Assembly (NCBI GenBank): GCA_029880585.1
Contig: JAOUOC010000007.1
Location: 1-35,680 of the forward strand
DNA: 35,680 nt
Direction: 5' to 3'
Source of the DNA: Gammaproteobacteria bacterium
GTDB taxonomy: Bacteria > Pseudomonadota > Gammaproteobacteria > Enterobacterales > Kangiellaceae
Part shown: positions 6,939-34,858 of the stretch, piece after piece
How the letters are laid out: each line of letters opens with the position of its first letter
Numbering within the stretch: position 1 is the stretch's first letter
Notes under the pieces: model-generated
What the model was told of the DNA's origin: nothing
What the model saw: the letters and a program-made list of their open reading frames with translations, nothing else
The model's database searches: none
Made by a program: the position numbers and the translations under genes

Positions 6939-6941
6939 CAG

Positions 6942-7981: not shown

Positions 7982-7986
7982 AAAAC

Positions 7987-8733: not shown

Positions 8734-8773
8734 TGGATAAACCTCAAAGTTATATTTGGAACAAACACTCGAA

Positions 8774-9079
8774 TTATTTCTGCTTTTGAGTTAATTGGTA
8801 AAACTTTAACTCTCTCTCAAAAACCTGCTTTTCTATCATCTTGTTCTTATCATCATGTAACTCGGAACTCAACGCTGTCTCAACACCAACTTCAGAATCC
8901 TGCCAGGGAACAATGTACAAAGATTTTGGTGCTTCCTTGTTTCCAATGATAGTAAGTCCTGATAAGGATTTTGTCTGAGTTGGCTTGTTGTTTCCATTTT
9001 CACTGGCCACAACAAAACCACTCATTAATAGAGCAACAAAAGATAAAATCAATATAATGACTGAATAAGCTTTTTTCAT
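8774..9079 (-). CDS. Small exported protein of unknown function
   Basis: The ORF track starts this at a GTG (9112), but I prefer the ATG at 9079. From there the protein begins MKKAYSVIILILSFVALLMSG, a standard signal peptide with probable cleavage after VVA. The mature part is about 80 residues. It has a short conserved-looking block (LSGLTIIGNKEAPKSLYIVP) and a charged C-terminal helix (IEKQVFERELKFYQ). I do not recognise a named domain. It is the first gene after the hairpin at 9209-9238 and lies 40 bp upstream of the ExbB-like gene, so it is probably co-transcribed with the motor genes and acts in the periplasm. Neither candidate start has a convincing ribosome-binding site. Confidence 0.65.
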   Translation of the reverse strand: MKKAYSVIILILSFVALLMSGFVVASENGNNKPTQTKSLSGLTIIGNKEAPKSLYIVPWQDSEVGVETALSSELHDDKNKMIEKQVFERELKFYQLTQKQK

Positions 9080-9208
9080 ACTTATATAATACAAAGTAAT
9101 TACGCTAATCACCTGAAATAAAAGACAATTTTGTGAACTGTATATGATTGTAGGCTAATATTTGTGAAAGGGTTTTCAATTCAATCAAAAATATTGGTTT
9201 TTTTGAAG

Positions 9209-9238
9209 AAAAACATCTACTCAGCTGATGATGTTTTT
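9209..9238 (-). terminator. Hairpin with T tract between TPR lipoprotein and motor genes
   Basis: A perfect 9-bp inverted repeat (AAAAACATC / GATGTTTTT) flanks a 12-nt loop. It lies 19 bp after the stop of the small TPR lipoprotein gene. In the minus direction the right arm runs into TTTTTCTT. The stem is AT-rich, so termination may be partial. It may split the region into an upstream TPR operon and a downstream channel-adhesin operon. Confidence 0.45.
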
Positions 9239-9256
9239 TTAATATAATTTTGTTTT

Positions 9257-9874
9257 TTACAATCTACGCTTAACATCTGCGAGCCAAATCTTAACGGTTT
9301 CATCCTCTTCATACTTTAAATAGGTTTCAAATTGCTCGTAGGCACAGCGATAATCTTGCAAATAAATATCACAAAGCACACCCAGATTTCTAATCGCGGG
9401 TAAATAGGTCGGATTAGAAATTATGGCTTTTTCATAGGCTTCTCTGGCTTGCTGGAATTTTCCCTGTTTACGATAGATTAATCCCAATTCATTATTAGCA
9501 ACCGCATTACCAGGATCCAGTTCAAGTGCACTTTTCAAACTCTCAACAGCAGGGTCAAGCTTTTCAGTTTTATGGTAAGCAATAGCCAGATTAATGAAAG
9601 GTGCAGGCAATTTTTTCTCACGGGACACAACCTCTTTTAACAAATTTATGGCTGGTTCATATTTGCCCTGTTTGAGCAAATCAATCGCCTGATTAAATTG
9701 ATTTTGAACAGTGGAACTCACTCTTACCTTACTAAAATCACTTGCAGGACTGGCGGCAGTCTTCTTGTTAGTCGGTCCGGACGCACAAGCCGACAACAAA
9801 AGCATAATAAAAAGAAACAATATTTTGTATTGATACATGTAATTGGCAAACAAGCTGTTTAAATTCCCGAACAT
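9257..9874 (-). CDS. Small TPR lipoprotein
   Basis: This is a 205-residue lipoprotein. The hydrophobic stretch ends in a clear lipobox (LLLSAC, Cys30), so it should be lipidated and anchored in the envelope. The ATG at 9838 (MYQYKILFLF) would give a more usual signal peptide and may be the real start. Residues 55-190 hold three to four tetratricopeptide repeats, for example APFINLAIAYHKTEKLDPAV and AVANNELGLIYRKQGKFQQA. The C-terminal helix carries an acidic EEDETVKIWLADVKRRL segment. TPR lipoproteins act as protein-protein scaffolds; compare PilF/PilW in type IV pili and the TPR parts of Glt complexes. It lies 11 bp after the large TPR lipoprotein gene. Confidence 0.85.
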   Translation of the reverse strand: MFGNLNSLFANYMYQYKILFLFIMLLLSACASGPTNKKTAASPASDFSKVRVSSTVQNQFNQAIDLLKQGKYEPAINLLKEVVSREKKLPAPFINLAIAYHKTEKLDPAVESLKSALELDPGNAVANNELGLIYRKQGKFQQAREAYEKAIISNPTYLPAIRNLGVLCDIYLQDYRCAYEQFETYLKYEEDETVKIWLADVKRRL

Positions 9875-9885
9875 TGATTATGGTA

Positions 9886-12800: not shown

Positions 12801-13008
12801 CTTCAGGTGTCAATGATGATTCCGGCGCCTGCTTTAAGAATTGTTCATAACTGCTCAAGGCCTTATTCAAACCATCTTCTACTTTTTCATCTTTAATTTC
12901 AATGTTCACCAGATTAAGACTGGCAAGGGTATTGCTATTATTGGTACTGGCACAGCCAGACAACAAGCCAATCAGAGAAATCAACAATAATGAATTGCGT
13001 GGGTTCAT
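9886..13008 (-). CDS. Large TPR lipoprotein
   Basis: The protein is about 1040 residues. The ORF track begins at a GTG (13017) that overlaps the upstream gene by 8 bp. The ATG at 13008 is better: CAGGTG lies 6 nt upstream and MNPRNSLLLISLIGLLSGC ends in a lipobox (Cys19). After a Ser/Ala-rich low-complexity linker (to about 180), the remainder is a superhelix of many TPR units, such as DQVLYQLSRAYEDLGEIEIA and AQYDGATSLIMAKQWKQAIP. Such proteins scaffold periplasmic parts of envelope machines. Size and context recall the TPR components of the myxobacterial Glt system, but family identity was not tested. It is translationally coupled to the 710-aa gene, with the upstream TAA ending 1 bp before this ATG. 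Confidence 0.87.
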   Translation of the reverse strand: MNPRNSLLLISLIGLLSGCASTNNSNTLASLNLVNIEIKDEKVEDGLNKALSSYEQFLKQAPESSLTPEAMRRLADLKIKKEYESEDSAASTATNLTESNLKPAQAGSSVTLPAISTSSNTSKRELKSVAGADTMAADSPIAVLSESEKEFSERASQEIEVAADKSAVVLPEAGEVSGAQEAIALYKKLLTKYPYYERNDQVLYQLSRAYEDLGEIEIAMKTLDDLVKQYPKSRHIEEANFRRGEYEFARKKYESSENYYQSIINIGEASEFYEFALYKQGWSYFKQELHERALQNFIGVLDYKIANGYDLENSRNKIEKKHISDTFRVVSLSFSYLGGAEAIEDFFKKHGRRFYEASIYSHLAEHYHSKRRFADAAETYQVYTGLYPDSKEAVFFDMRSIEIFKDGGFPKLIIEAKKKFATSYDLESKYWMIYDVKANEKAYEFLKSNIYDLAGHYHALFQDRRFYKMREQHYQEAIVWYRKYLKSFPREPQTPGLNNQLAEMMLQNKDFLSAGQEFERTAYNYPLHEKSDSAGYAAVYTYREHLKTVSQAQRNSIKREIIRVSVRFAEQFPQHKDAPLVLVAAVNDLFEMQDYQQAINYGRRVVSQYPKAEGNLHKTAWMIVGHSSFELAQYEQAEPAYSQALKLTPSTDKDHRGLIENLAASIYKQGEQAQKLENYILAAKHFLRVADVTPTSKIRSTAQYDGATSLIMAKQWKQAIPVLESYRKSYPKDKYQKEITKKLAYVYKEDAQYLKSASEYERVAAENPKDGELVRDAYYQAADSYELMNADDKALSVYYKIVRMFPKPLEHSIEIRQKIADIQLKKNNRNSYINELKAIVSLDKNAGKERTDRTKYLAAKASLVLTEPLLEQYKKIALSKPFKVNLRKKKQSMKRAIDGYTKLLDYNVAEVTAAATYYLAEIYYEFNVSMLKSERPSNLDEFELEQYELVIEEQAFPFEDKAINVHKKNVELISVGIYNQWVEKSIGKLANLIPARYAKTEQESSILTHIKQTINSDIKSGKSKMATKEAKVANIDIQTH

Positions 13009-13009
13009 T

Positions 13010-15142
13010 TTAAACACCTGCCATTTCCGTTATTAGGTTTAAGTTATGACCATCTGAACCATTTAAGGAAGCCCGTTCCTCGCTGTTAGTTTCTGATGAT
13101 GACTTTTGTTGCTCCTGCATTTGTTGTTTCTGATTTTGCTGTTGTTGATTTTGCAGTTCTAATAACTCCTGTTCTTTTTCAAGTTGTAGCTTTCTTTCCT
13201 GAATAGCTTTTATTTCAGCATCGGATTCTGCCTTGATTGCCCTGTCATAATTTTCTGCCATTGCAAATCTGGCTTTGATCTGATAACTCTCTAATCTTTT
13301 ACGTCTTCTGTCTAACTCGTTAATCGCCAAAGTTTCCATCAGATGTCCCTGTTTAGCCTGCACACCTTCTAATCGTCTTTTGGTATTTTCAATCTGAGCT
13401 CTGATTCTGGTGATAGGAATCGTGTATCCCTCATAACTTTGCGTTGCTGCCTGACGAGTTCTTACAAATGAATTGTATGCTTCTTTTTCTTTTGCGATGA
13501 CATCATCCAGCGACATCAGACTCTTGTGAGAATCTGTCAAACGTCTGTCGTATTCACGGTAAATATTCCACAGAACCACGCCTTTTAAGCGTTGGAGCCT
13601 TTGATAGGATTGCCCGGATTTTGATGGAATTTTTCTTTCCAGTTGCGCAATACGGTTCAGGTAAAATCTTTCATTGGAGAAAGCTAAAAATTCCGGTCTG
13701 GGTTGCACCAAAATATTATTCAGCTTTTTAGCCAGATTATCTCTCTGCTCAACGCGCAATCTTAACTTGCTGTCGATTTGTTTAAATCGTGCTTCAATAG
13801 CAGGTAGCAAAGGTTCAATGTATGCACGCCTTTTGGCAATAATGTCTTCGTATGCATCCAGACTGGTCAATGCATGATCCAGTGTTTCGTTGAGCTTATC
13901 CAGATCCTTGTAATTCTGATAAAAACTTTGAAACTCGGCCGATGCCATCAAAGACAGAATATAATGCGTTTCCGGTGTTTCTGGCAATGTTCGTAAATTG
14001 ACCAGCCAGTTTTCATCTTTAAGATGACGCTTATCTGTCATGGCCTTTAAAAACGATCCATCACGAACCATGCGAATAGATTGATCCAGTCTCTGAATTT
14101 CAGCCGTAAACTGATTAACCGCATAGTGATAAAGATTGGCTGCTTTGCCATAAACCTGCAATTTGCTGTAGGCATAAGGCAGTGCCATCATGGATTCCTG
14201 AACTGACTCATCTGTGATGTTGCGTTCATGCAATAATGTCCAGGGAACGATTGCTCTTTGGTATGATTCATCAGACAAGGCTGCCCAACCTGAACCTAGC
14301 AATGCCTGATTGGAAAAAGGGCCATCAAGGCGGACCCTGTCAAAGAAATCTTTTGCCTGTTTGGGGTCAGCCAGTGAATTATTCTTGTCCATAAAGAAAT
14401 TGGCCAACTTCAAATTAACCTTGTCTTTCAGGGCTGCCAGTGCAGGATCATCTGTACTGATCCGTCCCAATGAGTTGTACAAGGAAAAAGCTCTTTCCGG
14501 CTGATTATTTAGCAGAAAGGCGGTAGCGTAGTTGTAATGCCAATATCCTTCCAGATGTTCAAAGCCTCGTGCTTTTTCAAAACTCTCAATCGCCTTTGAA
14601 TATTGTCCAATGGAGACATAACTTAAGGCTTTGAGATAATCAGCATCAGCAATTACTTGCTCTGCCTGATCGCCAGATATTGATGTAGTGCTCTCTTCAT
14701 CATCTGAATTTGATACAACCGCTTTTTGCTTAATCGACTCCAGTACTACAATTGCGCCTTGAGGGTCATCTTTTTGATACAACAGATTGGCAAGAGCCAA
14801 TACCGCTCTATTACGAGTTAATAAATCAACCTCACTGCCCAAAACTGCTCGAATGGCCTTGTCAGCTCTTTTGTGCATGCGATATTGCAATTCAATTTCA
14901 CCAACAGAAAAATCAGCCAGATTATGATGTTTTGCAAGACTGTTAAGTTGTCTCTCATCAACTTCATAGAACTGAGCTAACTCGGCATCAAGACTAGCCA
15001 GAGCTTCAAAATATTTTTGCTGATGTGCGTAAAAGAAAACTTCACCGAGATGTAAATCCTTAAGCTCATCACGTGCAAAAAACTTGCTGGCATTGACCGG
15101 CAAGCTCAAAACAAGAATCATGATAGCAGGAAGGACCCTCAC
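13010..15142 (-). CDS. Exported TPR and coiled-coil protein
   Basis: This is a 710-residue protein. The GTG start is supported by AGGAG 7 nt upstream and by the signal peptide it opens (MRVLPAIMILVLSLPVNA, likely cut at VNA-S). Residues 20-330 contain TPR-like helical pairs (AEQVIADADYLKALSYVSIG, YWHYNYATAFLLNNQPERAF). Residues about 400-660 are long charged coiled coil, and the tail is Gln-rich (LELQNQQQQNQKQQMQEQQ). It is probably a periplasmic scaffold of the same machine as the two TPR lipoproteins. It lies 9 bp after the small coiled-coil gene and is coupled to the large TPR lipoprotein gene. No enzymatic motif is visible. Confidence 0.85.
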   Translation of the reverse strand: MRVLPAIMILVLSLPVNASKFFARDELKDLHLGEVFFYAHQQKYFEALASLDAELAQFYEVDERQLNSLAKHHNLADFSVGEIELQYRMHKRADKAIRAVLGSEVDLLTRNRAVLALANLLYQKDDPQGAIVVLESIKQKAVVSNSDDEESTTSISGDQAEQVIADADYLKALSYVSIGQYSKAIESFEKARGFEHLEGYWHYNYATAFLLNNQPERAFSLYNSLGRISTDDPALAALKDKVNLKLANFFMDKNNSLADPKQAKDFFDRVRLDGPFSNQALLGSGWAALSDESYQRAIVPWTLLHERNITDESVQESMMALPYAYSKLQVYGKAANLYHYAVNQFTAEIQRLDQSIRMVRDGSFLKAMTDKRHLKDENWLVNLRTLPETPETHYILSLMASAEFQSFYQNYKDLDKLNETLDHALTSLDAYEDIIAKRRAYIEPLLPAIEARFKQIDSKLRLRVEQRDNLAKKLNNILVQPRPEFLAFSNERFYLNRIAQLERKIPSKSGQSYQRLQRLKGVVLWNIYREYDRRLTDSHKSLMSLDDVIAKEKEAYNSFVRTRQAATQSYEGYTIPITRIRAQIENTKRRLEGVQAKQGHLMETLAINELDRRRKRLESYQIKARFAMAENYDRAIKAESDAEIKAIQERKLQLEKEQELLELQNQQQQNQKQQMQEQQKSSSETNSEERASLNGSDGHNLNLITEMAGV

Positions 15143-15151
15143 AACAGACTC

Positions 15152-15715
15152 CTACCAATCCTTAAAGGCAATTGGTTGGCCTGAACCACTTTGACCAGCA
15201 ACAACAACTTCTACAAATTTGGGGCCAACACCTTTTTCCAATCGGTAGCTGGCATTTTTTTGAAAGGTATCACCGGAACTGTCTCTTGCAACAAAGCTGA
15301 CTTCAACCATGTGATTGCCGCTTTTGGCATTACCCGTATATATTCGCTGAACTGCTCCTGCTCTTAACGCTTCAACTTCCTTGAAGGTGTAGGCATGATA
15401 GGCAACAATCTTGTTATTGACCTTGACTTGCATGCCATCAATTTCAAAATTGTTATTTCCGGTTAAAGATACAAAAACAGAAAATTGAGTATTGGAAGGG
15501 AACAGTAGTTTTTCTTCAAGATTTTTCAATTCAGAAGTTAATCCAAGTACATCTTTTTTGATGTCCTGCACCTGTTCATCAATACCTTTCAGTTCGTCCG
15601 ATGAAACTTCTGCAGCATGCAGGGAAATACCCGACAACACAAAAGTAGCGAATATTAAATTGAGAATAAATTGTTTGATCCAATGAGGTTTAAATGTGTA
15701 CACTTTAACAGTCAT
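15152..15715 (-). CDS. Small exported coiled-coil plus beta-domain protein
   Basis: This 187-residue protein is the first gene of the TPR set. Residues 14-35 form a signal peptide (FILNLIFATFVLSGISLHAA). A heptad-rich segment follows (LKGIDEQVQDIKKDVLGLTS, to about 70), then a beta-rich domain of about 110 residues (VFVSLTGNNNFEIDGMQVKV; HMVEVSFVARDSSGD). From memory, homologues near TPR/ExbB/ExbD clusters in gammaproteobacteria are sometimes labelled AraC regulators. There is no helix-turn-helix here and the protein is clearly exported, so that label would be wrong. The fold resembles an Ig-like or carboxypeptidase-regulatory type domain, but I cannot assign it. It is likely a periplasmic part of the machine. 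Confidence 0.75.
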   Translation of the reverse strand: MTVKVYTFKPHWIKQFILNLIFATFVLSGISLHAAEVSSDELKGIDEQVQDIKKDVLGLTSELKNLEEKLLFPSNTQFSVFVSLTGNNNFEIDGMQVKVNNKIVAYHAYTFKEVEALRAGAVQRIYTGNAKSGNHMVEVSFVARDSSGDTFQKNASYRLEKGVGPKFVEVVVAGQSGSGQPIAFKDW

Positions 15716-15996: not shown

Positions 15997-17187
15997 ATGG
16001 GAAAAGCGATTTTAATCATTCTGGATGGCCTGGGTGTTGGTGATGCACCTGACGCAGATGCATACGGCGATCTGGGTAGCAATACTTTAGGCAATATGTC
16101 AAAAAAAGTGGGCGGTATTCACGTCCCCACTCTGGCCTCACTAGGCCTTGGAAATATAGCCCAAATTGAAAATGTACCTCCCAGTAAAAATCCCAAAGCA
16201 TTGTTTGGACGACTGGAAGAAATTAGTGAAGGAAAAGATTCTACCACAGGCCATTGGGAACTGATGGGCGTTGTTACCCAAAAAGCTTTTCCAACTTATC
16301 CAGATGGTTTCCCAGAAGAATTAATTGAAGAATTTACCGCAAAAACAGGCTATGGTGTTTTGGGAAACAAGGCTGCCAGTGGTACTGATATTATCAATGA
16401 ATTGGGAGATGAGCATCTTGCAACTGGCAAATTGATTGTTTATACATCGGCAGATAGTGTGTTTCAGATTGCGGCTCATGAGGACGTGATAGATCATCAT
16501 GAATTATATCGTGTTTGTGAAATTACAAGAGAATTTCTTAAACCGCCACACCACATAAGTCGGGTAATTGCCAGACCTTTTAAAGGTAATTCCAATGCCT
16601 ATGAAAGAACACCTTATCGACATGATTATTCTATTGATCCGCCAGGTGAACTGATACTTTCCAACCTGCAAAAACATGGTGTAAAAGTCAGCTCTATTGG
16701 CAAGATATACGACTTGTATAATGGACAAGGTATTGATGAAACACATACCTCCCACAACAATGCTGAAGGCATGGCGCAACTTGAAAAATTATACAGCCAA
16801 CCTGCCGAAAATGATGAGCTGATACTTTTGAATCTGGTTGATTTTGACATGCTCTGGGGACATAGAAACGACCCTGTTGGGATGAAAAATGGTCTTGAGG
16901 AATTTGATCGGTGGCTCGGTAAGTTTTTACCCCAAATGCAGGCTGGTGATCTATTAATGATGACAGCTGATCATGGCAATGACCCGACGATGCCGGGTAG
17001 CGATCACTCCAGAGAGCATGTACCCATTATTGCCTATCAGGCTGGTGTAACTGACAAAGATGATTCTGATCCCGGGCACAGTAATCTTGGTATTCGCAAG
17101 GGATTTATGGATGTTGGCGCCAGCTTTATGGACTATTTTAACTGTAATACCCATACAAAAGGTGTCAGTTTTTTGTTAAAAACCTGA
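15997..17187 (+). CDS. deoB: Phosphopentomutase
   Basis: The enzyme interconverts (deoxy)ribose 1-phosphate and 5-phosphate, linking nucleoside phosphorylase products to central metabolism. At 396 residues it is close to the usual 390-410. The alkaline-phosphatase-superfamily metal sites are visible: IILDGLGVGDAPDAD at the N-terminus, the DSTTGHWELMG block with the phosphorylated Thr, DFDMLWGHRND, TADHGNDPT and SDHSREHVPI. AAGGCGA lies about 8 nt before the ATG. It is the only deo gene on the plus strand and ends 1 bp from the stop of the convergent TetR gene. It supplies deoxyribose 5-phosphate to the aldolase encoded in the facing operon. The cytoplasmic location and function are secure. 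Confidence 0.97.
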   Translation: MGKAILIILDGLGVGDAPDADAYGDLGSNTLGNMSKKVGGIHVPTLASLGLGNIAQIENVPPSKNPKALFGRLEEISEGKDSTTGHWELMGVVTQKAFPTYPDGFPEELIEEFTAKTGYGVLGNKAASGTDIINELGDEHLATGKLIVYTSADSVFQIAAHEDVIDHHELYRVCEITREFLKPPHHISRVIARPFKGNSNAYERTPYRHDYSIDPPGELILSNLQKHGVKVSSIGKIYDLYNGQGIDETHTSHNNAEGMAQLEKLYSQPAENDELILLNLVDFDMLWGHRNDPVGMKNGLEEFDRWLGKFLPQMQAGDLLMMTADHGNDPTMPGSDHSREHVPIIAYQAGVTDKDDSDPGHSNLGIRKGFMDVGASFMDYFNCNTHTKGVSFLLKT

Positions 17188-17188
17188 G

Positions 17189-17803
17189 CTAGACTCTTAC
17201 ACTGGTGAGTATCATATTAACGACATCGTCAGTTTTTTGCTGATACTCATCTTCATTATATGGCTCATCATTGTTGAGTATTTCTATCTGGTTTTCAAAG
17301 TCGGCGTAATGCTGAGTGACTGACCAAATCATATAAAAAAGCACATAGGGATCTACGGGCTTTATTCTGCCTTCTTGCACCCAATTTTCAACAATCTGTT
17401 TTTTATCTTCAAACCAGTTTTTAAATTCAGTTCTGAGAAAATCGCCTGCGACGGTAGCACCATGTAAAATCTCATTAGCCCATACTTTTGAAGCAAGTGG
17501 ACGGTTACGGGAAAATTGCATTTTGGCTTCAACATAATGGGTTAATGCTGTTTTGGGGTCCTGATATTGATCAAAAACTTCCGCAGCATCCATCCATTCG
17601 ATCAAAATTCTCTCCAGAACAACACGATATAATTGCAACTTGGTTTTAAAATAATAATGTAGATTAGATTTGGGTAGCCCTGCCTTTCTGGCAATCATTT
17701 CTGTGGTAGCCCCCTTAAAACCAAAGCGTGCGAAAACTTGCTCTGCAGCCTGAATAATTTTTTTTTCGTTGGTTTCCCGAATAATTTCTTTTTGATCTTT
17801 CAT
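17189..17803 (-). CDS. TetR family regulator, RutR-like
   Basis: The 204-residue protein has an N-terminal TetR helix-turn-helix (AEQVFARFGFKGATTEMIAR, then KAGLPKSNLHYYFKTKLQLY). Its C-terminal ligand domain resembles E. coli RutR: SRNRPLASKVWANEILHGA and the strongly RutR-like block MIWSVTQHYADFENQIE. RutR binds uracil or thymine and controls pyrimidine metabolism. Here the gene is the last of the deoA-upp-cdd operon, whose enzymes make and consume thymine and uracil, and a RutR-type operator lies at the operon promoter. I infer an autoregulated repressor that senses a free pyrimidine base. It is not certain that it is the orthologue of rutR, since no rut genes are in the window. Confidence 0.85.
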   Translation of the reverse strand: MKDQKEIIRETNEKKIIQAAEQVFARFGFKGATTEMIARKAGLPKSNLHYYFKTKLQLYRVVLERILIEWMDAAEVFDQYQDPKTALTHYVEAKMQFSRNRPLASKVWANEILHGATVAGDFLRTEFKNWFEDKKQIVENWVQEGRIKPVDPYVLFYMIWSVTQHYADFENQIEILNNDEPYNEDEYQQKTDDVVNMILTSVRV

Positions 17804-17837: not shown

Positions 17838-18761
17838 TCAAATCAGCGCCGGATGATAGTCAAAAGACGACTGTCTACAACAATTTTCCAACAGGGTTTG
17901 TGTTGCCTGTTTTTGGCTTACTTTTCCTTGTGCTTCTACCAAAACAACACGAGCAATTGATTCAAAGGCATTTTCGCGCCCCGAAAGCCGCAATTGATTT
18001 AGGGCAACGGTAAAAGCCAAAACACTGGGGTTGTATGCTGCATTTTCCAGAGTTTTACCAAAATAAGAATTGTCATCGTCGGTAATAATGACGCATCCTG
18101 CCAAATTTTGTGTGTAGGGTGCATAGCATTCTGATGCGAGTTTTAAGGCCATTGCAACGGCTTCATCAGAATTGTCACCTTGCAATTTAGGTGTGTTTTT
18201 TTCAGTTTGGTCTACTGATAATCCTGAATTATTATTTTGAAGATCAGCGGGTTTGAAGGCTGCTGGTAATAATTGCGATAACAACAGATCAGGTCTGTTT
18301 ATTTTTGACATCTTGCTATCTGGCAAATAAATTGGTAATTCTTCAGCCTTGCTCAATTCAAACATGAACTGTCGGCAATGTCCGCAAGGAATTTCTGAAA
18401 TGGCAATAGCAGTAGTCGATTGTCCATTCATCCAGGCATTAATGACTGCAGATTGTTCAGCATGCAAAGTATTGCCGAGGGAAACGCCTTGAATTTCAAG
18501 ATTGGAACCAAAAAACAGATCACCATAACCATTGGATTTCAAATCACCAAGTGCAATGGCGCCAACTTTAAAATCTGAAACAGGGGAATGAGAATAACTT
18601 TCTGCAACCGCAAGCAAATCAATCATTAATGTTTTTAAATCAATCGATAAGCTGGAGCAAATAAATTGACAGACTTCAGAAGAAAGCATACCTCCATGAT
18701 TCCCTATGCTGTCCAACTCTTCTCTGAAATCTGTCAAAAGCTTCGTGATTTGCACATTCAT
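17838..18761 (-). CDS. cdd: Cytidine deaminase
   Basis: It deaminates cytidine and deoxycytidine to uridine and deoxyuridine, feeding the thymidine phosphorylase and uracil phosphoribosyltransferase of the same operon. At 307 residues it is the long homodimeric E. coli type, with a catalytic N-terminal domain and a degenerate C-terminal copy. The catalytic motifs are HAEQSAVINAW (zinc His and proton-shuttling Glu) and PCGHCRQFMFEL (two zinc Cys). The C-terminal domain (CYAPYTQNLAGCVIITDD) keeps the fold but not the zinc set. GGAG directly abuts the annotated ATG, so the GTG two codons downstream (18755), spaced 6 nt from it, may be the real start. It lies 34 bp before the TetR gene. Confidence 0.95.
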   Translation of the reverse strand: MNVQITKLLTDFREELDSIGNHGGMLSSEVCQFICSSLSIDLKTLMIDLLAVAESYSHSPVSDFKVGAIALGDLKSNGYGDLFFGSNLEIQGVSLGNTLHAEQSAVINAWMNGQSTTAIAISEIPCGHCRQFMFELSKAEELPIYLPDSKMSKINRPDLLLSQLLPAAFKPADLQNNNSGLSVDQTEKNTPKLQGDNSDEAVAMALKLASECYAPYTQNLAGCVIITDDDNSYFGKTLENAAYNPSVLAFTVALNQLRLSGRENAFESIARVVLVEAQGKVSQKQATQTLLENCCRQSSFDYHPALI

Positions 18762-18772
18762 CTCCAGGCTAC

Positions 18773-19327
18773 TTACCTCGATATATCAATTTTGGGTAAA
18801 TCCAGTCCCTTCTGATTTTTAATTTCATCTTCGGTGCAGCCGACCAATTCGTGAGGAAACACCAGCCATTCATCGGTTTCTTCAAGATAAAAATCAGGCT
18901 GGATGTTAGTCACATTATTGTTTGGCTTGTAATAAACTGTCGCAACTTTGATGGTTGAAGGTGTATTTTTACGGCATTTTATTTTTATCTTCTTCAACAA
19001 GGCATCAATAGAACGGCCACTATCAAACACGTCATCTACAATCAACAAATTATCTTCTGACTCAATGTTATCAATAATATATTCAAGGCCGTGAACTTTT
19101 ACCTTCTTTTGTTGCTGCATACCTATGTAGCTACTGGTTCGTATGGCAATGTGATCGGTTTTGACACCGTAATATTCCATAATTTCCTGTACTGCAATTC
19201 CTGTTGGGGTTCCACCGCGCCAAATGCCTACAATAAACTCCGGTTTAAAACCGCTTTTTAAAATATGGATGCCAAGTTCAAAAGATTTATTCAACAAATC
19301 CTCGGCACTGATAAAAACTTTATCCAT
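18773..19327 (-). CDS. Purine-type phosphoribosyltransferase (probable hypoxanthine phosphoribosyltransferase)
   Basis: The protein transfers phosphoribose from PRPP to a base, probably hypoxanthine or guanine/xanthine. The PRPP-binding loop is plain: LLIVDDVFDSGRS. An N-terminal IVGIWRGGTPTGIAVQE strand-loop and a C-terminal hood (YYKPNNNVTNIQPDFYLEET) complete the type I PRTase fold. The ORF track begins at a TTG (19336); the ATG at 19327 (MDKVFISAEDLL) is more likely, giving 184 residues. It is embedded between upp and cdd, 11 bp before cdd, so purine base capture is co-expressed with pyrimidine salvage. The exact base preference cannot be read from sequence. Confidence 0.82.
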   Translation of the reverse strand: MDKVFISAEDLLNKSFELGIHILKSGFKPEFIVGIWRGGTPTGIAVQEIMEYYGVKTDHIAIRTSSYIGMQQQKKVKVHGLEYIIDNIESEDNLLIVDDVFDSGRSIDALLKKIKIKCRKNTPSTIKVATVYYKPNNNVTNIQPDFYLEETDEWLVFPHELVGCTEDEIKNQKGLDLPKIDISR

Positions 19328-19382
19328 TACTTCCAACCTTCTAATAAACTACTTTTCAAAAACTTTATTAATAACTTCCAAT

Positions 19383-20009
19383 TTATTTGGTACCAAATAT
19401 TTTGTCGCCAGCATCCCCAAGCCCGGGAATGATGTAACCGTCTTCATTAAGATGATCATCAATACTGGCTGTATAAATCTCAATCTCCGGATGTTTGCTG
19501 ATAATGAATTCCAACCCTTCAGGTGCTGAAACCAGAACCAGACAACGTATGTCCTTACATCCTGCTTGCTTTAACAATTCAATAGTTGCATTCATTGAAC
19601 CACCAGTAGCCAGCATAGGATCGATAATCAGGGCAATTCGCTGATCGATGTTGTAGGCCAATTTTTCGAAGTAAGACACAGGTTGCAGTGTCTCTTCATC
19701 ACGATATAAACCTACCACACTAATTTTGGCACTTGGCATCATCTGCAAAACACCATCAAGCATACCGATACCAGCTCTTAAAATAGGCACTACTGTGGCT
19801 TTTTTGCCTTTGATCTGTTGTCCCGTAATCTCACCATTCCAACCTTCAAAACTGTAATTTTCCAACTGAAGATCCTTGGTTGCCTCATAGGTAATCAGAC
19901 TGGCAACCTCTGAAGCCAATTGTCTGAAACTGCTGGTGCTTTGATCTTTTTGTCGCATCAAACTTAACTTATGTTTGACCAGCGGATGCATAATCTCATG
20001 AACTGCCAT
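19383..20009 (-). CDS. upp: Uracil phosphoribosyltransferase
   Basis: This enzyme makes UMP from uracil and PRPP. Its 208 residues match the family. Motifs include [13 protein letters not shown] at the N-terminus, [14 protein letters not shown], the PRPP loop [15 protein letters not shown], and the C-terminal uracil-binding segment [25 protein letters not shown] precedes the ATG at good spacing. In this operon it recaptures the uracil released by the phosphorylase from deoxyuridine, competing with any RutR-like sensor for free uracil. Confidence 0.97.
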
Positions 20010-20049: not shown

Positions 20050-22443
20050 TTAATCACCATAAGGTATCCAGACATTTTTCACCTCACAGGCTTCGCGTAA
20101 AAACTGCCTTTCCTTTCCTGTTCGATACCAGTCAAATGCTTTACCATAATTCACCCAGGTACGCTTAAGATTGGTTGCAGAGGCCATCTCAACCATTTTG
20201 CAACCTTCAATACTACCGTGATACCAAACACCTTCCACCTGTTGGTGCTCTGACAAAACTTTCATCAATGAATCTTTATCTCCGGTGATGATGTTAACAA
20301 CACCAGCAGGCATATCAGAAGTTTCCAGAATCTGATAAAAGTCAGTTGCCAGCAGAGGTGCTGACTCAGATGGAATGATAACAACTCGATTCCCCATAGC
20401 GATGGCAGCTGATAACAGAGAGACAAAGGCAAGCAAAGGTGTATCATCAGGGCAACCAATTGCCATAACGCCAATCGCTTCATTCATTGCTAACGTGACA
20501 CCATGCATAGGTGGCTGATGAACCGCACTGTCGTATTTATCTGCCCAGGCAGCATAGGTGAATATCTGTGAGATTGCCGCATCAAATTCGGTTTCTGCCT
20601 GTTTTTGTGTATAGCCAGCTACCTGCTTCAATCGTTCACAAAATTCGCCTCGTCGATAGGCAAGATTCTCAGCCATAAAATAAAGAATTTGGGCACGGAA
20701 ATGGCCGTTAGATTGACTCCAGCTTCCGGCTTTAAAGGCGGCTTCTACTGCATTTCTGACATCCTTACGATTACCTTCGCTGATTCTGCCACAGTCTGTA
20801 CCTGTAGGAGAATGCACCACGAGCGAGTACCCACCGTCAGGGCGTACCTGCTTGCCATTTATATAAAGTTTTGCAGTTTGATCAATTGCAGGAAAATCAC
20901 CCTTGTCAGTTGTGTTTTTTATAGTTGATTTTGCCCCTTTATTCGCTTCTTTTTTGGATTTGCCCTCGAGATAAATCGGATTGGCAGGCTTCATATATTC
21001 ATGCATTCCTTCCATTCCGCCTTCCCGACCAACACCTGATTCTCTGTAACCACCAAAACCACAGGATGCATCAAACTGATTGGTGGTGTTAATCCAAACG
21101 ACACCAGCCTTTATTTGTGGTGCGACATCCAAAGCTCGGTTAATATTTTCTGACCAGACACTGGAAGCGAGTCCGTAACGGGTGTTGTTGGCAAGAGTAA
21201 TAGCCTCAGATTGCTCTCTGAAACTCATCACACTGAGAACCGGACCAAAAATTTCAACATTAGCAGCAACATTGCTGGTTTCTACATCTGTCAAAAGTGT
21301 TGGTAGACAGAAGCAACCATCTTTGGGAGAAGACAGCTTGGGTTGCCATTTGGTTGCTCCCTCAGCCACACTTTGTTCAACAATAGATAATATTCTTTGC
21401 TGTTGTGATGGATCGACTATCGCGCCAATATCGGTATTTTTATCCAGAGGATCGCCAACAATCAGTTTTTTCATTCTGGCTTTCAGTTTTTCAACAAACT
21501 TCTCTTCTACTGTCTCCTGAACCAACAATCTGGAACCAGCACAACAAACCTGCCCCTGATTAAACCAGATGGCATCTACAATACCTTCTACAGCGCTATC
21601 CAGATCGGCATCATCAAAGACAATAAAAGGAGATTTACCGCCTAACTCAAGGGTGATTTTTTTGCCTGTTCCTGCAGTTTTTTCACGGATAATTTTGCCA
21701 ACTTCAGTTGAACCGGTAAAAGCGATTTTGTCTATATTTTCATGGGTCACAATAGCATTACCAACAACGCCATCACCAGTAACTACGTTCACTACACCTT
21801 TGGGTAAACCGACTTCCTCAAAAACTTCTGCCAACATCAAAGCACTTAAACTGGTGTATTCTGCAGGCTTTATCACCACACAGTTACCGGCTGCAATGGC
21901 GGGCGCAATTTTCCATGCTGCCATCAACAATGGAAAGTTCCACGGAATGATCTGACCTACCACACCCAATGGAACAAAATCAGATAGCTCACTATCCATT
22001 AACTGTGCCCAGCCAGCATGATGATAAAAATGCCTGACCACTAATGGAATATCAATATCTCTGGATTCACGAATTGGTTTACCATTGTCCATAGATTCAA
22101 TTACGGCAAATTCTCTGGAACGTTTTTGAATAAGACGTGCAATAGCGTAAAGATACTTGGCTCTGCCATGTCCACCTAGCTTTTGCCATTCAGGTTGTGC
22201 AGCTCTTGCTGACTGAATTGCCAGTTCTATACTCTCATCACTTGCTTGAGAAATTTTTGCCAGCAATTTACCATTGGATGGATTTTTTGATTCAAAAAAC
22301 TGACCTTTGTTTTGCTGATACCATTGACCATTGATATACATACCAAAACCTTTTTTATGGTCTTCAAGCCATTGATCAATCTTGTCATGACCTTCCGGTG
22401 CTGGTCCGTAACTCATCTTTTTAAATATGTCCGAAATTTTCAT
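20050..22443 (-). CDS. Tandem-domain aldehyde dehydrogenase (ALDH16-like)
   Basis: The 797 residues hold two ALDH modules. Domain 1 (about 35-495) is complete: GQIIPWNFPLLMAAWK, FTGSTEVGKII, the general base ELGGKSP and the catalytic Cys in FNQGQVCCAGSR, then EIFGPVLSVMSF. A Lys/Ser-rich linker follows (about 505-525). Domain 2 (about 530-797) keeps the NAD-fold half (MAIGCPDDTPLLAFVSLLSA, VVNIITGDKDSL) but has no Cys/Glu catalytic site and stops early. This two-domain plan is that of the ALDH16 family, whose human member has lost the Cys. Position directly after deoC suggests it oxidises the acetaldehyde made by the aldolase to acetate; this is inference from context. It lies 38 bp after deoC and 40 bp before upp. 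Confidence 0.9.
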   Translation of the reverse strand: MKISDIFKKMSYGPAPEGHDKIDQWLEDHKKGFGMYINGQWYQQNKGQFFESKNPSNGKLLAKISQASDESIELAIQSARAAQPEWQKLGGHGRAKYLYAIARLIQKRSREFAVIESMDNGKPIRESRDIDIPLVVRHFYHHAGWAQLMDSELSDFVPLGVVGQIIPWNFPLLMAAWKIAPAIAAGNCVVIKPAEYTSLSALMLAEVFEEVGLPKGVVNVVTGDGVVGNAIVTHENIDKIAFTGSTEVGKIIREKTAGTGKKITLELGGKSPFIVFDDADLDSAVEGIVDAIWFNQGQVCCAGSRLLVQETVEEKFVEKLKARMKKLIVGDPLDKNTDIGAIVDPSQQQRILSIVEQSVAEGATKWQPKLSSPKDGCFCLPTLLTDVETSNVAANVEIFGPVLSVMSFREQSEAITLANNTRYGLASSVWSENINRALDVAPQIKAGVVWINTTNQFDASCGFGGYRESGVGREGGMEGMHEYMKPANPIYLEGKSKKEANKGAKSTIKNTTDKGDFPAIDQTAKLYINGKQVRPDGGYSLVVHSPTGTDCGRISEGNRKDVRNAVEAAFKAGSWSQSNGHFRAQILYFMAENLAYRRGEFCERLKQVAGYTQKQAETEFDAAISQIFTYAAWADKYDSAVHQPPMHGVTLAMNEAIGVMAIGCPDDTPLLAFVSLLSAAIAMGNRVVIIPSESAPLLATDFYQILETSDMPAGVVNIITGDKDSLMKVLSEHQQVEGVWYHGSIEGCKMVEMASATNLKRTWVNYGKAFDWYRTGKERQFLREACEVKNVWIPYGD

Positions 22444-22481: not shown

Positions 22482-23471
22482 TTAACTTATGGGATGACGA
22501 TGGAACGCAGAGTATCGTCCGGTAACATGATGCTCCAATTGACGCTCAATATCAGCTAACAAGCTGGATGCACCAAAACGAAACATTTCAGGATTTAACC
22601 AATAATCTCCAAGCTCTTCTTTCATCAACACCAGATAATTAATCGCATCTTTTGCCGTACTAATTCCACCTGCAGGCTTAAACCCAACACGATAGCCTGT
22701 TAGCACCTGATAATGCCTGATCATTCTGGTCATCACCAGACTAACTGCCAAATTAGCATTGGTTGATTCCATACCTGTAGAGGTTTTTATAAAATCACTA
22801 CCAGCCATCATGGCAACCATTGAAGCTCTTGCTACATTATTCAAAGTACTCAACTCACCAGTCGAAATAATGGTTTTCATGTGAACATCTGAACCGCAAG
22901 CTTTTTTGAAAGCTTTTATTTCATCATAAAGCTGCTGCCATTTTCCGTTTAATACCAGACCGCGTGTGATTACAATATCAATCTCTTTGGCGCCTGCCGC
23001 AACCGAATGTTTGATCTCTTCCAGACGTGTCGCAAAAGAGGAAAGCCCAGCCGGGAATCCTGTGGAAACTGCAGCAACAGGAATATCAGTTCCTTCAAGT
23101 GCTTTGACGGCAACAGGAACCATTTCGTGATAAACACAAACAGCACCAGTTGTGATATTCAAGTCTTCAACTTCAAGTGCCTTTTGTAGTTCCAGACTAA
23201 TGGGATTTTTAGCCTTCGCGCACAACCGCTTCACCTTGCCAGGGGTATCCTGACCAGATAAAGTTGTTAAATCAATACATGAAACTGCTTTGAGTAGCCA
23301 GGCTGCTTGCCAGGCTTTTTTCAATGAACGTCTTTTCGTCAGGGTGTTTACCCGACGTTGAATAGCACTGAAATTAACACGAATATCATCAACCCATTGC
23401 ATTTTTAATTCAACACCCGGGTTATGTACACCGTGAAATGATTTCACCACTGAACTGTCTTGTGCATCCAT
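22482..23471 (-). CDS. deoC: Deoxyribose-phosphate aldolase
   Basis: It cleaves 2-deoxyribose 5-phosphate to acetaldehyde and glyceraldehyde 3-phosphate. At 329 residues it is of the longer, eukaryote-like type; E. coli DeoC is about 259. It carries a 70-residue N-terminal extension (FSAIQRRVNTLTKRRSLKKA) before the barrel. The first barrel strand is AVSCIDLTTLSG. The Schiff-base Lys is in SDFIKTSTGM, and the second catalytic Lys is in VGFKPAGGIST. AVSTGFPAGL and GAKEIDIVI are further family marks. It sits 39 bp after deoA and 38 bp before the aldehyde dehydrogenase, which gives a compact route from thymidine to acetate and glycolysis. Confidence 0.96.
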   Translation of the reverse strand: MDAQDSSVVKSFHGVHNPGVELKMQWVDDIRVNFSAIQRRVNTLTKRRSLKKAWQAAWLLKAVSCIDLTTLSGQDTPGKVKRLCAKAKNPISLELQKALEVEDLNITTGAVCVYHEMVPVAVKALEGTDIPVAAVSTGFPAGLSSFATRLEEIKHSVAAGAKEIDIVITRGLVLNGKWQQLYDEIKAFKKACGSDVHMKTIISTGELSTLNNVARASMVAMMAGSDFIKTSTGMESTNANLAVSLVMTRMIRHYQVLTGYRVGFKPAGGISTAKDAINYLVLMKEELGDYWLNPEMFRFGASSLLADIERQLEHHVTGRYSAFHRHPIS

Positions 23472-23510: not shown

Positions 23511-24866
23511 TTACGCTGTAATTCTTTTTAAAATAACCGAATTTCCGACTGTTATACTTTCTGAATCTTTTGTCGAATTCTCAGCTATATCTTCAAATTT
23601 ATAAGCCGATAAAATTCTTTTGGTTACCGAATCAATCTTCGACTCATCGTTGATATGCAACATTAGTAAAGGTTCTTGATCATCAACTTTATCACCAATT
23701 CCTTTTATCTGTGAAAATCCTACAGCATGATCAATACGATCGGTTACCAATCTTCTTCCACCACCAATTTCTACAATTGCATTGCCTAATGCTCTGACAT
23801 CAATCGATTTAACTCTACCATTTTGAATATTTTCTGCATAAACGGGGATTATTGTGCCAGCTTGTTCCAAATATTTTGCAGTACTGGATAACAGATCAGA
23901 AGGACCACCCAAAGCAACCACCATTTCTTCAAACTTCTCAGCGGCCAGACCTGAATCTAAAACCTGATTGATTTTTATTTTTGCCTGTTTGGAATCTCCT
24001 TCCAACCCGCTGGAAACTAATAGCTCGGCTACCAACTCGACAACAACCTGATGTAATCTGGCTTCTCTTTGTTTGCCAGTTAAATAATCTATGCTTTCAT
24101 GAACTTCCAGAGCATTTCCCGCAGTAAAACCCAAAACCTGAGACATATCAGTAATCAGTGCAGTTGTTTTTAACCCCAAACCTTCACCAACCTCAGCGAT
24201 ATTCCTTGCCAAATCTTCTGCCATTTGTTGACTGGCGGCAAATGCACCACTGCCTGTTTTAACATCCATCACCAATGCATCAAGCCCTGCTGCCAACTTT
24301 TTGGATAATATCGAGGCGGTAATTAATGGTATGGACTCTACCGTCGAAGTTACATCCCGAATGGAATACAGTCGTTTATCTGCTGGTGCCAATTCAGCTG
24401 TCTGTCCAACTATTGCACAACCGCATTGAGAGACAACTTTTTGTAATTGGCTAATATCGGGGGTGGCATTGTAGCCGGGAATGCTTTCCATTTTATCCAA
24501 CGTTCCACCCGTATGACCTAGCCCTCTTCCTGAAATCATTGGTACATAAGCACCACATGCAGCCAAAATCGAGGCAAGCATCAAACTGACCTTATCACCA
24601 ACACCACCTGTTGAATGCTTGTCTACCACAGGTCCTGAAAAGTTATAACCTGACCAATCCAGAGTTGAACCAGAATGTTGTATTCCGCTGGTCAGTGCTA
24701 CACCTTCTTCACGAGTCATACCCTGAAAAAAGACAGCCATGGCAAAAGCAGCTACCTGACTATCAGAAATAGACTGATCGACCAATCCATCAACAAAAAA
24801 TTGGATTTCTTTTGCGGTAAGAATACTACCATCTCGCTTTGCACGAATTAATTCTTGAGCCAACAT
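23511..24866 (-). CDS. deoA: Thymidine phosphorylase
   Basis: It phosphorolyses thymidine and deoxyuridine to the base and deoxyribose 1-phosphate. Its 451 residues span the usual alpha domain, hinge and C-terminal alpha/beta domain. Motifs are the phosphate-binding VVDKHSTGGVGDKVS, the family signature SGRGLGHTGGTLDKMESIPG and VMDVKTGSGAF, with DRIDHAVGFSQIKGIGD near the end. It is the first gene of the seven-gene minus operon. The Shine-Dalgarno AGGTGA (24876-24881) lies 9 nt before the ATG and is itself the edge of a 16-17 bp repeat array. Expression is probably controlled by the operator at 25085 and perhaps by the leader. Confidence 0.97.
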   Translation of the reverse strand: MLAQELIRAKRDGSILTAKEIQFFVDGLVDQSISDSQVAAFAMAVFFQGMTREEGVALTSGIQHSGSTLDWSGYNFSGPVVDKHSTGGVGDKVSLMLASILAACGAYVPMISGRGLGHTGGTLDKMESIPGYNATPDISQLQKVVSQCGCAIVGQTAELAPADKRLYSIRDVTSTVESIPLITASILSKKLAAGLDALVMDVKTGSGAFAASQQMAEDLARNIAEVGEGLGLKTTALITDMSQVLGFTAGNALEVHESIDYLTGKQREARLHQVVVELVAELLVSSGLEGDSKQAKIKINQVLDSGLAAEKFEEMVVALGGPSDLLSSTAKYLEQAGTIIPVYAENIQNGRVKSIDVRALGNAIVEIGGGRRLVTDRIDHAVGFSQIKGIGDKVDDQEPLLMLHINDESKIDSVTKRILSAYKFEDIAENSTKDSESITVGNSVILKRITA

Positions 24867-24875
24867 AAATTTCAG

Positions 24876-24939
24876 TCACCTGATAATCATTACTACCTGA
24901 TAGTCGTTACTGCCGACTATCATTTCTACCTATAATCAT
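24876..24939 (-). other. Two overlapping upstream ORFs in the deoA leader
   Basis: uORF1 (24939-24907) encodes MIIGRNDSRQ. uORF2 (24923-24876) encodes MIVGSNDYQVVMIIR. Each ATG has AGG five bases upstream. uORF2 ends in a TGA that is part of the deoA Shine-Dalgarno AGGTGA. Translation is not shown; they may be by-products of repeat expansion. Confidence 0.35.
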
Positions 24940-24944
24940 TTCTA
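24879..24944 (-). repeat. Four imperfect 16-17 bp tandem repeats in the deoA leader
   Basis: Units on the plus strand are CCTGATAATCATTACTA, CCTGATAGTCGTTACTG, CCGACTATCATTTCTA and CCTATAATCATTTCTA, followed by CCTAAC. In mRNA sense, the unit boundaries give AGG-TAGAA-ATG or AGG-TAGTA-ATG at three points, so the array repeats a Shine-Dalgarno-like plus ATG pattern. The nearest unit supplies the AGG of the deoA ribosome-binding site. Confidence 0.8.
24898..24922. promoter_or_regulatory. 25-bp dyad in the deoA leader
   Basis: TGATAGTCG and CGACTATCA are perfect 9-bp inverted arms around TTACTGC. In RNA this would be a 9-bp stem with a 7-nt loop, 31 nt before the deoA start. It could be a protein operator or an RNA hairpin, and it straddles two of the tandem repeat units. 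Confidence 0.5.
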
Positions 24945-25070
24945 CCTAACTTTAACAAACAAATTTGCCGGTTAGAATTTTCCTGACAGAATCTTAAAAA
25001 TCAGGTTCACTATACAGCGCAACCACTTGTTATATTTGGTAATTTCTAGATTGCTTAACATAGACGCGCT

Positions 25071-25100
25071 ATGATAAATCAATCTTAACCATTTGGTCAA
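25071..25100 (-). promoter_or_regulatory. Candidate deoA operon promoter
   Basis: Reading minus, TTGACC (-35, 25100-25095), 18 bp, then TATCAT (-10, 25076-25071). Transcription would start near 25064, giving a leader of about 198 nt. The -35 is the right arm of the RutR-like operator, so bound repressor should block polymerase. Confidence 0.55.
25085..25100. promoter_or_regulatory. RutR-like operator
   Basis: TTAACCATTTGGTCAA matches the E. coli RutR consensus TTGACCAnnTGGTCAA (recalled from the literature) at 13 of 14 fixed positions. The operon it faces ends with a RutR-like TetR gene. Confidence 0.65.
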
Positions 25101-25120
25101 CTTTGTCAAAACAATATAAT
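25092..25120 (+). promoter_or_regulatory. Candidate promoter of the TraB/GumN gene
   Basis: A perfect -10 (TATAAT, 25115-25120) has a poor -35 (TTGGTC or TTTGGT near 25092-25098) that lies inside the RutR-like operator. The repressor could therefore act on both divergent genes. Confidence 0.45.
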
Positions 25121-26140: not shown

Positions 26141-26166
26141 GGCGGATTAACTAAAGTCTATCCGCC
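26141..26166. terminator. Convergent terminator hairpin after traB and vapC
   Basis: GGCGGAT and ATCCGCC form a perfect 7-bp GC-rich stem with a 12-nt loop, followed on the plus strand by CCTTTTAG. The right arm includes the last codons of the PIN toxin gene. It probably ends the TraB-family transcript. Confidence 0.6.
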
Positions 26167-26591
26167 CCTTTTAGTTCCCAAGGGTCTAATAACTGAACGC
26201 CACTTTGCTGCATATCTTTTGTATTACGAGTTACAACGACCAAATCATACGCCAATCCTGAAGCTGCAATCAATCCATCAATTGCTGGCATAGGTTTGCC
26301 GGTCTGCTCAGCAGAACCTTGAATACGTCCCCACTGGATAGCAATATCCAAATCAAGTGGAATAATTCGCCCTTCAAATCTATTCTTTAAATCTTCTTCA
26401 ACCCACAATTTAATTTTTTCTTTACGATTTTCATCTGAAACCTTCTCAATTCCTTTTTCAATTTCACCAAAGGTCAAAACACTTACATACAGCTCGTATT
26501 CTTCTTGAGACTCTATCCATTTTGTCAAATTTTGATTGGGTTTTGGTTTGAATAATTCTGAAATAACACAAGTATCTAGCAGATAACTCAT
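26151..26591 (-). CDS. PIN-domain toxin (VapC/FitB type)
   Basis: This is a 146-residue type II toxin, expected to be an Mg-dependent RNase. The acidic PIN residues are visible: Asp in LLDTCVISELF, Glu in VLTFGEIEKGI, Asp in PAIDGLIAASG, and the final polar cluster VVTRNTKDM. The C-terminus (VQLLDPWEL) is typical of the FitB-like subgroup. Its ATG overlaps the antitoxin stop by 4 bp, so the pair is translationally coupled. The gene is intact. The RNA target cannot be predicted from sequence. Confidence 0.93.
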   Translation of the reverse strand: MSYLLDTCVISELFKPKPNQNLTKWIESQEEYELYVSVLTFGEIEKGIEKVSDENRKEKIKLWVEEDLKNRFEGRIIPLDLDIAIQWGRIQGSAEQTGKPMPAIDGLIAASGLAYDLVVVTRNTKDMQQSGVQLLDPWELKGADRL

Positions 26592-33227: not shown

Positions 33228-34466
33228 GTGAGTGTAAAAGTTTTAGTCATAGGTTATGTCTGGCCAGAACCAAAGTCATCTGCTGCTGGTAGCCATATGC
33301 TTTCATTGCTAAGGCTCTTCAAACAACAGAATTGGCAAGTGACCTTTGCCACGCCAGCGCAAAAAACCGAACATATGATTGATTTAAGTCTTGAAGAAAT
33401 CGAAACTGCAGAAATTCAGCTCAATGATTCTTCTTTTGATGATTGGGTTAGCAAACTCCAACCTGACATAGTCATGTTTGATCGTTTTATGATGGAAGAA
33501 CAGTTTGGTTGGCGAGTAGAACAAGCTTGTCCGCAAGCACTCAGAATTCTGGATACCGAAGATCTGCAAAGCCTGAGAAATGCAAGACATAAAGCAATAA
33601 AACAGGATCTGAAATTTGAAATTTCAGATTTGCTTTCTAGTGATCTGGCTAAAAGAGAAATTGCAGCAATTTATCGCAGTGATCTGTCACTGATTATTTC
33701 AGATTATGAAATTACACTTCTACAAAATCATTTTCAAATTTCTGACTCACACATACATCATCTACCCTTTATGCTCGACCTGAAAAAATTGGATAGTGAT
33801 TCTCCAGACTTCGAACAGAGAAATCATTTTGTCACCATTGGCAACTTTCGCCATGAACCCAATTGGGATGGTGTACTTTATTTACAATCTATCTGGCCAT
33901 TGATCAGAAAAGAATTACCGGAAACTGAATGTCATATTTATGGTTCCTATCCACCGAAAAAAGCAACGCAACTGAATAATCCGAAAAATGGCTTTTTAGT
34001 TAAGGGTTGGGCTGAAGATGTAAATGAAGTGATGAGAAATGCCAGAGTATGTTTGTCTCCCCTACGATTTGGCGCCGGGATAAAAGGCAAGTTTATAGAT
34101 GCCATGCAATGTGGTACGCCGATAGTTACTACAGATATCGGCGCTGAAGGCATGACAGGTGATTTACCCTGGCCAGGACTGATTGCCAATGATGTAGAAT
34201 CAATTGCCAGGAATGCTGTTGAACTCTATCAAAACAAAAATTTGTGGAATAAAAACCAACAAGCAATTCAACCATTATTGAAAGATCGCTATGAAGGGGA
34301 AAAATTGGGTAAAGAATTGATTGCGAAGATTTCTCTGTTACAAAATAACCTGACTCAACATAGACAGCAAAACTTCATTGGTGCAATGTTAAACCATCAC
34401 ACCATGAAAAGTACCCAATATATGTCTAAGTGGATTGAGGTGAAGAACAAGCTGGAAAATGATTAA
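33228..34466 (+). CDS. GT4-like glycosyltransferase (group 1)
   Basis: The 412-residue protein starts at GTG 4 bp after the uvrA stop, preceded by ATCGG. The N-terminal domain has the start of a GT-B fold (VKVLVIGYVWPEPKSSAAGS; LQPDIVMFDRFMMEEQFGW). The C-terminal domain carries the donor-binding region of GT4 enzymes: VTIGNFRHEPNWDGVLYL, ARVCLSPLRFGAGIKGKFID, then AMQCGTPIVTTDIGAEGM with the usual Gly/Pro-rich loop. It probably transfers a sugar in envelope or polysaccharide synthesis; donor and acceptor are unknown. Its stop overlaps the stop of the convergent PIN toxin gene by 4 bp. Coupling to uvrA is probably only transcriptional. Confidence 0.87.
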   Translation: MSVKVLVIGYVWPEPKSSAAGSHMLSLLRLFKQQNWQVTFATPAQKTEHMIDLSLEEIETAEIQLNDSSFDDWVSKLQPDIVMFDRFMMEEQFGWRVEQACPQALRILDTEDLQSLRNARHKAIKQDLKFEISDLLSSDLAKREIAAIYRSDLSLIISDYEITLLQNHFQISDSHIHHLPFMLDLKKLDSDSPDFEQRNHFVTIGNFRHEPNWDGVLYLQSIWPLIRKELPETECHIYGSYPPKKATQLNNPKNGFLVKGWAEDVNEVMRNARVCLSPLRFGAGIKGKFIDAMQCGTPIVTTDIGAEGMTGDLPWPGLIANDVESIARNAVELYQNKNLWNKNQQAIQPLLKDRYEGEKLGKELIAKISLLQNNLTQHRQQNFIGAMLNHHTMKSTQYMSKWIEVKNKLEND

Positions 34467-34858
34467 AGTAATTTTAAACCGTAAGATTCGTATTTTGACA
34501 TATCTCCATCCATAGAAACCAAATTATAATCTCCGGTTATAGCCTGCCATACCAACATTCTGTCAAAAGGGTCTTTATGCTCCAAACGTGGCAAATTATG
34601 AAATGAAGAACTAACCTGAGCATCCAGTGGAATGCAATTTATCCCCATTTTTGAAGCAAGTTCTGGAAAATCTTCTGGTTTTGCATCACTGAGTGATAGC
34701 CTTCCCAAAGAGTATTTCAAAGATATTTCCCACAGAGAAATACTCGATAAACAAACCTCATTATATGGGTCTTCTAAAATATCCAAAATATGTCTGGATA
34801 TTTTAGTAGGCGAGAAAATCAACCACAGGAAAATATGTGTATCTATCAATAATCTCAT
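34463..34858 (-). CDS. PIN-domain toxin (VapC type)
   Basis: This 131-residue putative RNase toxin is distinct in sequence from the one at 26151. PIN residues are Asp in LLIDTHIFLWL, Glu in SSISLWEISLKYSLGRL, Asp in HKDPFDRMLVWQA, and Asp in LVSMDGDMSKY. The SLWEIxxK and DPFDRxLxxQA blocks are typical of the COG3744-type PIN subgroup. Its start overlaps the antitoxin stop by 4 bp and its stop overlaps the glycosyltransferase stop by 4 bp. Confidence 0.93.
   Translation of the reverse strand: MRLLIDTHIFLWLIFSPTKISRHILDILEDPYNEVCLSSISLWEISLKYSLGRLSLSDAKPEDFPELASKMGINCIPLDAQVSSSFHNLPRLEHKDPFDRMLVWQAITGDYNLVSMDGDMSKYESYGLKLL

Follow-up and report, generated by a model that had tools for sequence, protein, structure and literature searches.

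The deoxynucleoside operon described here is very probably autoregulated and induced by a free pyrimidine base, its putative repressor being a RutR-family protein that has been re-targeted to this pathway. The operon lies in the window, the whole 35,680 nt stretch of DNA that was analyzed (contig JAOUOC010000007.1, GCA_029880585.1), which comes from a host of the family Kangiellaceae. A RutR-type site overlaps the promoter of deoA, the first gene; the site is conserved together with the regulator, the ligand pocket of the regulator is conserved, and the regulator co-occurs with deoA.

We infer DNA binding, repression and the role of the base as the inducer from sequence, and the process can be pictured as follows. 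A dimer of the regulator would bind to TTGACCAaaTGGTTAA over the -35 element of deoA, thereby blocking RNA polymerase. Pyrimidine deoxynucleosides imported into the cell would be cleaved by DeoA, which would set thymine or uracil free. The base would then fill the pocket formed by W70, Y90, W160, Q164 and Q172, causing the repressor to be released from the operator. The entire deoA-deoC-ALDH-upp-prt-cdd-tetR operon would thus be induced, the regulator included, which amounts to autoregulation. As the regulator gene is located inside its own target operon, the operon and the repressor would rise together upon this release.

The operon and the operator at the deoA promoter

The features of the window that are needed for the description are as follows.

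25085..25100, unstranded: predicted RutR-type operator, palindrome TTGACCAaaTGGTTAA when read toward deoA (1 mismatch to the consensus; conserved)
25095..25100, minus strand: -35 element of the deoA promoter, TTGACC, inside the operator (18-bp spacing to TAT(T/C)AT the same in 7 genomes)
25071..25076, minus strand: -10 element of the deoA promoter, TATCAT (18 bp after TTGACC)
23511..24866, minus strand: deoA, thymidine phosphorylase, first gene of the operon (TIGR02643, 619 bits, cut-off 571)
22482..23471, minus strand: deoC, deoxyribose-phosphate aldolase (TIGR00126, above cut-off)
20050..22443, minus strand: two-domain aldehyde dehydrogenase (ALDH), 797 aa (match to 6mvr, E 1e-266, residues 1-796)
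19383..20009, minus strand: upp, uracil phosphoribosyltransferase (TIGR01091, above cut-off)
18773..19336, minus strand: prt, phosphoribosyltransferase, class only (PF00156; under every equivalog cut-off)
17838..18761, minus strand: cdd, cytidine deaminase (NF006537, 247 bits, cut-off 153)
17189..17803, minus strand: RutR-family TetR regulator, last gene of the operon (TetR_N and PF08362; RutR structures as best PDB matches)
15997..17187, plus strand: deoB, phosphopentomutase, convergent with the regulator gene and 1 bp past it

The genes from deoA to tetR run in one direction with gaps of 11-46 bp, and together they cover the whole conversion of pyrimidine deoxynucleosides into the base, glyceraldehyde 3-phosphate and acetate. 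The aldehyde dehydrogenase, which is matched over its full length by what we take to be a bacterial ALDH16 (6mvr), is likely to oxidize acetaldehyde. As the preliminary description had it, the operon ends with a TetR protein carrying the RutR-like block MIWSVTQHYADF, and thymine and uracil are products or substrates of the operon: DeoA releases the free bases and Upp consumes them. The convergent deoB gene belongs to the same pathway, and its upstream region has no match to TTGACCAnnTGGTCAA at up to 3 mismatches.

Elsewhere in the window, positions 5595-15715 hold an operon of ExbB/TolQ-type, probable ExbD/TolR-type, TonB-like and large TPR-rich proteins, possibly an energized envelope or gliding-type system. 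Two PIN-domain, VapC-like proteins are encoded at 26151-26591 and 34463-34858.

The putative operator, TTAACCATTTGGTCAA at 25085-25100, agrees with the RutR consensus TTGACCAnnTGGTCAA at 13 of the 14 fixed positions, the remaining one being a mismatch, and is the sole match in the window at up to 2 mismatches. In the direction of deoA it reads TTGACCAAATGGTTAA, and the first six bases of this sequence are the -35 element. Both the fit to the consensus and the identity of the site with the -35 of the deoA promoter had been claimed before and hold on inspection, TTGACC being located inside the site and separated from TATCAT by 18 bp. The distance from the end of the putative operator to the ATG of deoA is 218 bp. 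When the 350 bp 5' of deoA are shuffled with their dinucleotides preserved, none of 1000 shuffles equals the site, in the host or in any of six relatives.

Two other elements upstream of deoA were considered and rejected. TTGACA at 25109, which would be the -35 of an overlapping second promoter-like match, is not kept by the relatives. The deoA leader at 24878-24947 contains three to five degenerate copies of a repeat unit close to ATAATCATTTCTACCT and a hairpin, GATAGTCG...CGACTATC; as an attenuator this hairpin was rejected on account of a fold z-score of only -1.9 and the absence of a terminator. This part of the leader is shorter in most relatives.

The regulator and its ligand pocket

The regulator is 204 residues long. 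It scores 161.1 bits against PF08362 (TetR_C_3, the YcdC-like C-terminal domain; cut-off 25) and 45.1 bits against the TetR_N helix-turn-helix (cut-off 24), and its fold is fixed by the match of its sequence to the solved structures of E. coli RutR, which are its best matches in the PDB. It lacks the HTH_DeoR domain (PF08220), which places it outside the DeoR family.

The structure of RutR with uracil shows stacking of W77 and W167 on the ligand, a bond from Q171 and a water-mediated contact with Y97, while Q179 of the second subunit is close enough to reach it (PMC10891134). These residues correspond to W160 and W70 (W167 and W77), Q164 (Q171), Y90 (Y97) and Q172 (Q179') of the regulator, and all five are invariant in the alignment of the nine members of its group. 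The same holds for K45, which corresponds to K52 of E. coli, the acetylation of which abolishes DNA binding by RutR (PMC10891134).

This conservation of the pocket suggests that the regulator may respond to uracil or thymine. The pocket residues are, however, common to almost every RutR-family group in the survey, and hence cannot tell uracil or thymine apart from a related ligand or discriminate between inducers. The regulator and the operator might then be correctly assigned while the inducer is a nucleoside (thymidine or cytidine), deoxyribose 5-phosphate or a phosphorylated pyrimidine. Such signals have a precedent in the classical deo regulators of E. coli, as DeoR senses deoxyribose 5-phosphate and CytR senses cytidine. 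An inducer of this kind is nevertheless unlikely: the regulator retains all five uracil contacts, among them the two stacking tryptophans and Q164 (Q171 in E. coli), and the operon itself both liberates free bases, through DeoA, and uses them up, through Upp. A free base is preferred as the inducer in what follows.

Conservation of the site and origin of the regulator

Orthologues of the regulator, 54-63% identical to it, are present in eight related genomes, in every one within a deo/cdd cluster. Seven of these genomes, those of alignment A1, comprise six from the family of the host, including Aliikangiella marina and two Kangiella/Kangiellaceae genome bins, and one from the sister family; the ninth member of the group, G067, was found in a survey of the order. 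The linkage between the regulator and the deo/cdd genes is thus seen at 9/9 loci. In the family of the host, deoA was found in 6 of 40 genomes, all six of which have the regulator.

The link between operator, regulator and operon that had been predicted from the single sequence stands up to comparison: the deoA operator is kept in all six relatives for which the deoA upstream region is available, and these retain the operon and the regulator as well. TTGACC, 18 bp and TAT(T/C)AT, with the operator at the same position of the promoter, recur in 7/7 genomes of the group. The half of the dyad that lies inside the promoter spacer is also conserved, which the constraint on the promoter alone would not demand.

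The usual layout in the relatives is a divergon, with deoA-deoC-ALDH transcribed one way and nupC-cdd-tetR the other. Five relatives have two putative operators in the shared intergenic region, one for each promoter, and a sixth, in which the operons are separate, has one site before deoA and one before nupC. The regulator of the relatives therefore appears to control the nupC-cdd-tetR operon too, as judged from these sites. The nupC gene of the host is located elsewhere in the genome with no site upstream, so the importer would not be co-regulated there as in the relatives.

Deo operons outside the group provide a control. Of the 12 deo loci to which a RutR-like gene is linked, 11 have a site with up to 2 mismatches, as against 0 of 17 control operons, nearly all of which are canonical deoC-first operons in genomes that have a RutR-like gene elsewhere; as the loci are related, these counts are not phylogenetically independent and a p-value overstates their independence.

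The same box accompanies the nearest relatives of the regulator outside the group (45-53% identity), which are regulators of alphaproteobacterial clusters. Their neighbors, where examined, are of the dihydropyrimidine dehydrogenase, dihydropyrimidinase and N-carbamoyl-beta-alanine hydrolase types. A RutR box is found within 250 bp upstream of the regulator genes of this type at 56 of 64 non-Burkholderiales loci, compared with 5 of 1391 random windows.

These results bear on the possibility that a different transcription factor acts at the palindrome and that the RutR-like gene just happens to lie nearby. It draws on the motif counts: matches to TTGACCAnnTGGTCAA at up to 3 mismatches number 3 in the window against 2.5 expected, which is the chance level, so the count itself proves nothing and the case rests on position and conservation. 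The co-occurrence of site and regulator, absent from the control operons, and the presence of the same box before homologous regulators in the alphaproteobacterial pyd clusters make this possibility very improbable. A scan of the host genome with a looser form of the motif at up to 1 mismatch gave 30 matches, compared with 23 for a reversed control. As 13 of the 14 other matches inspected (some 15 more were left out) are inside long reading frames (zapE-like, amylase-like, mreB and others), no further target of the regulator is claimed.

In the tree, the deo-linked group is located near the regulators of the alphaproteobacterial pyd clusters; its monophyly is weakly resolved, being kept in 63% of bootstrap trees, with the long row L181 beside it. 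E. coli RutR and the second alphaproteobacterial paralogues fall together (100/99), apart from the group of the regulator, and the branch between the two sides is strongly supported (99/97). The host genome has no match to RutA, no preA/pydA (dihydropyrimidine dehydrogenase) above cut-off, no DeoR-type helix-turn-helix (PF08220) and no second RutR-like gene, these absences being provisional in a draft that is 92% complete and consists of 384 contigs. A different contig of the genome carries a pair of LacI-type genes side by side.

That the regulator is simply the RutR orthologue with a single additional target, as its ungapped identity of 36% to E. coli RutR, the same pocket and the same operator consensus might indicate, is scarcely tenable and largely refuted by the tree: E. 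coli RutR lies with other paralogues beyond the 99/97 branch, the regulator reaches 162.6 bits against the RutR equivalog TIGR03613 where the cut-off is 368, and in the draft of the host there are no detectable rut or pyd genes to regulate. Judged by its sequence, the regulator is a RutR-family protein different from the E. coli RutR orthologue, and it is best read as a member of that family re-targeted to deo rather than as RutR with a new site.

Several further arrangements were seen among the loci surveyed. Many pyd clusters among the alphaproteobacterial loci L064-L140 have two RutR boxes about 33 bp apart (at about 9880-9940 in most loci) upstream of a pair of RutR-family genes, which suggests paired regulators or two stacked dimers. 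In Burkholderia (L092, L118 and L123), a RutR-family regulator is located about 10 kb or less from homologues of deoA and nupC; these loci have no recognizable RutR box, and the RutR motif may have diverged there. A second RutR-family paralogue (36-38%) of the Kangiellaceae and the sister family, in which the equivalent of K45 is an arginine, occurs at L050-L052 with no RutR box nearby; at L050 it has, unexpectedly, cobQ and an alpha-ribazole phosphatase-like gene as neighbors.

A second case of deo linkage is found in family f7 (L044, L154, L155, L156 and L157), the RutR-family gene of which falls on the same side of the tree as E. coli RutR. The five regulators form one clade (100/99), separate from the Kangiellaceae-type group. 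Their loci contain genes for a TonB-type receptor, an Exo_endo_phos (endonuclease/exonuclease/phosphatase-family) protein and a phosphatase-like protein together with cdd, deoA, upp and nupC, and look like loci for the utilization of external DNA or nucleotides. RutR boxes precede cdd-deoA or the receptor gene in 5/5 genomes and, apparently, deoB in some. On balance, deoxynucleoside catabolism seems to have acquired a RutR-family repressor on two or more occasions, in the Kangiellaceae with their sister family and in f7, with the base freed by DeoA rather than deoxyribose 5-phosphate as the signal.

Comparison with known systems

A literature search for RutR together with deoA, thymidine phosphorylase or TonB, with the RegPrecise tables outside its range, returned no prior report; none of the articles covered pairs RutR with thymidine phosphorylase, and the three that mention both RutR and deoA are, to judge by title and abstract, E. 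coli promoter, PdhR-regulon and riboswitch studies. The RutR regulons of 68 proteobacterial genomes, according to portions of the study that describes them, have a mosaic distribution with taxon-specific changes of the motif; RutR is cast there as a regulator of pyrimidine catabolism, and those portions of the main text do not name the deo genes (PMC5343134).

If the proposed mechanism is correct, some marine bacteria induce the use of deoxynucleosides by means of the free base, unlike the classical deo signals. The system would then be an example, open to testing, of a well-characterized sensor family that has moved to a neighboring pathway while retaining its operator and ligand pocket, and automatic annotation as RutR can give the wrong target pathway.

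The regulator shares with E. coli RutR (YcdC; TIGR03613/PF08362) the fold family, the uracil contacts, the K52 equivalent and the consensus TTGACCAnnTGGTCAA. It differs from RutR, which acts on rut and car, in being only 36% identical, in belonging to a separate clade and in its location within and predicted action over a deoxynucleoside operon. With the alphaproteobacterial pyd regulators it has 45-53% identity and the same box, which in their case is directly upstream of their own gene, whereas their neighbors, where examined, are genes of reductive pyrimidine catabolism and not deo genes. DeoR and CytR of E. coli likewise control deo and nucleoside-utilization genes, and so does DeoR* of Shewanella, a regulator of the Crp family (PMC3223726), but the protein families of all three are unrelated to that of the regulator. 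This marine group thus appears to have taken over a RutR-family repressor for the breakdown of deoxynucleosides, which in E. coli is the job of unrelated repressors.
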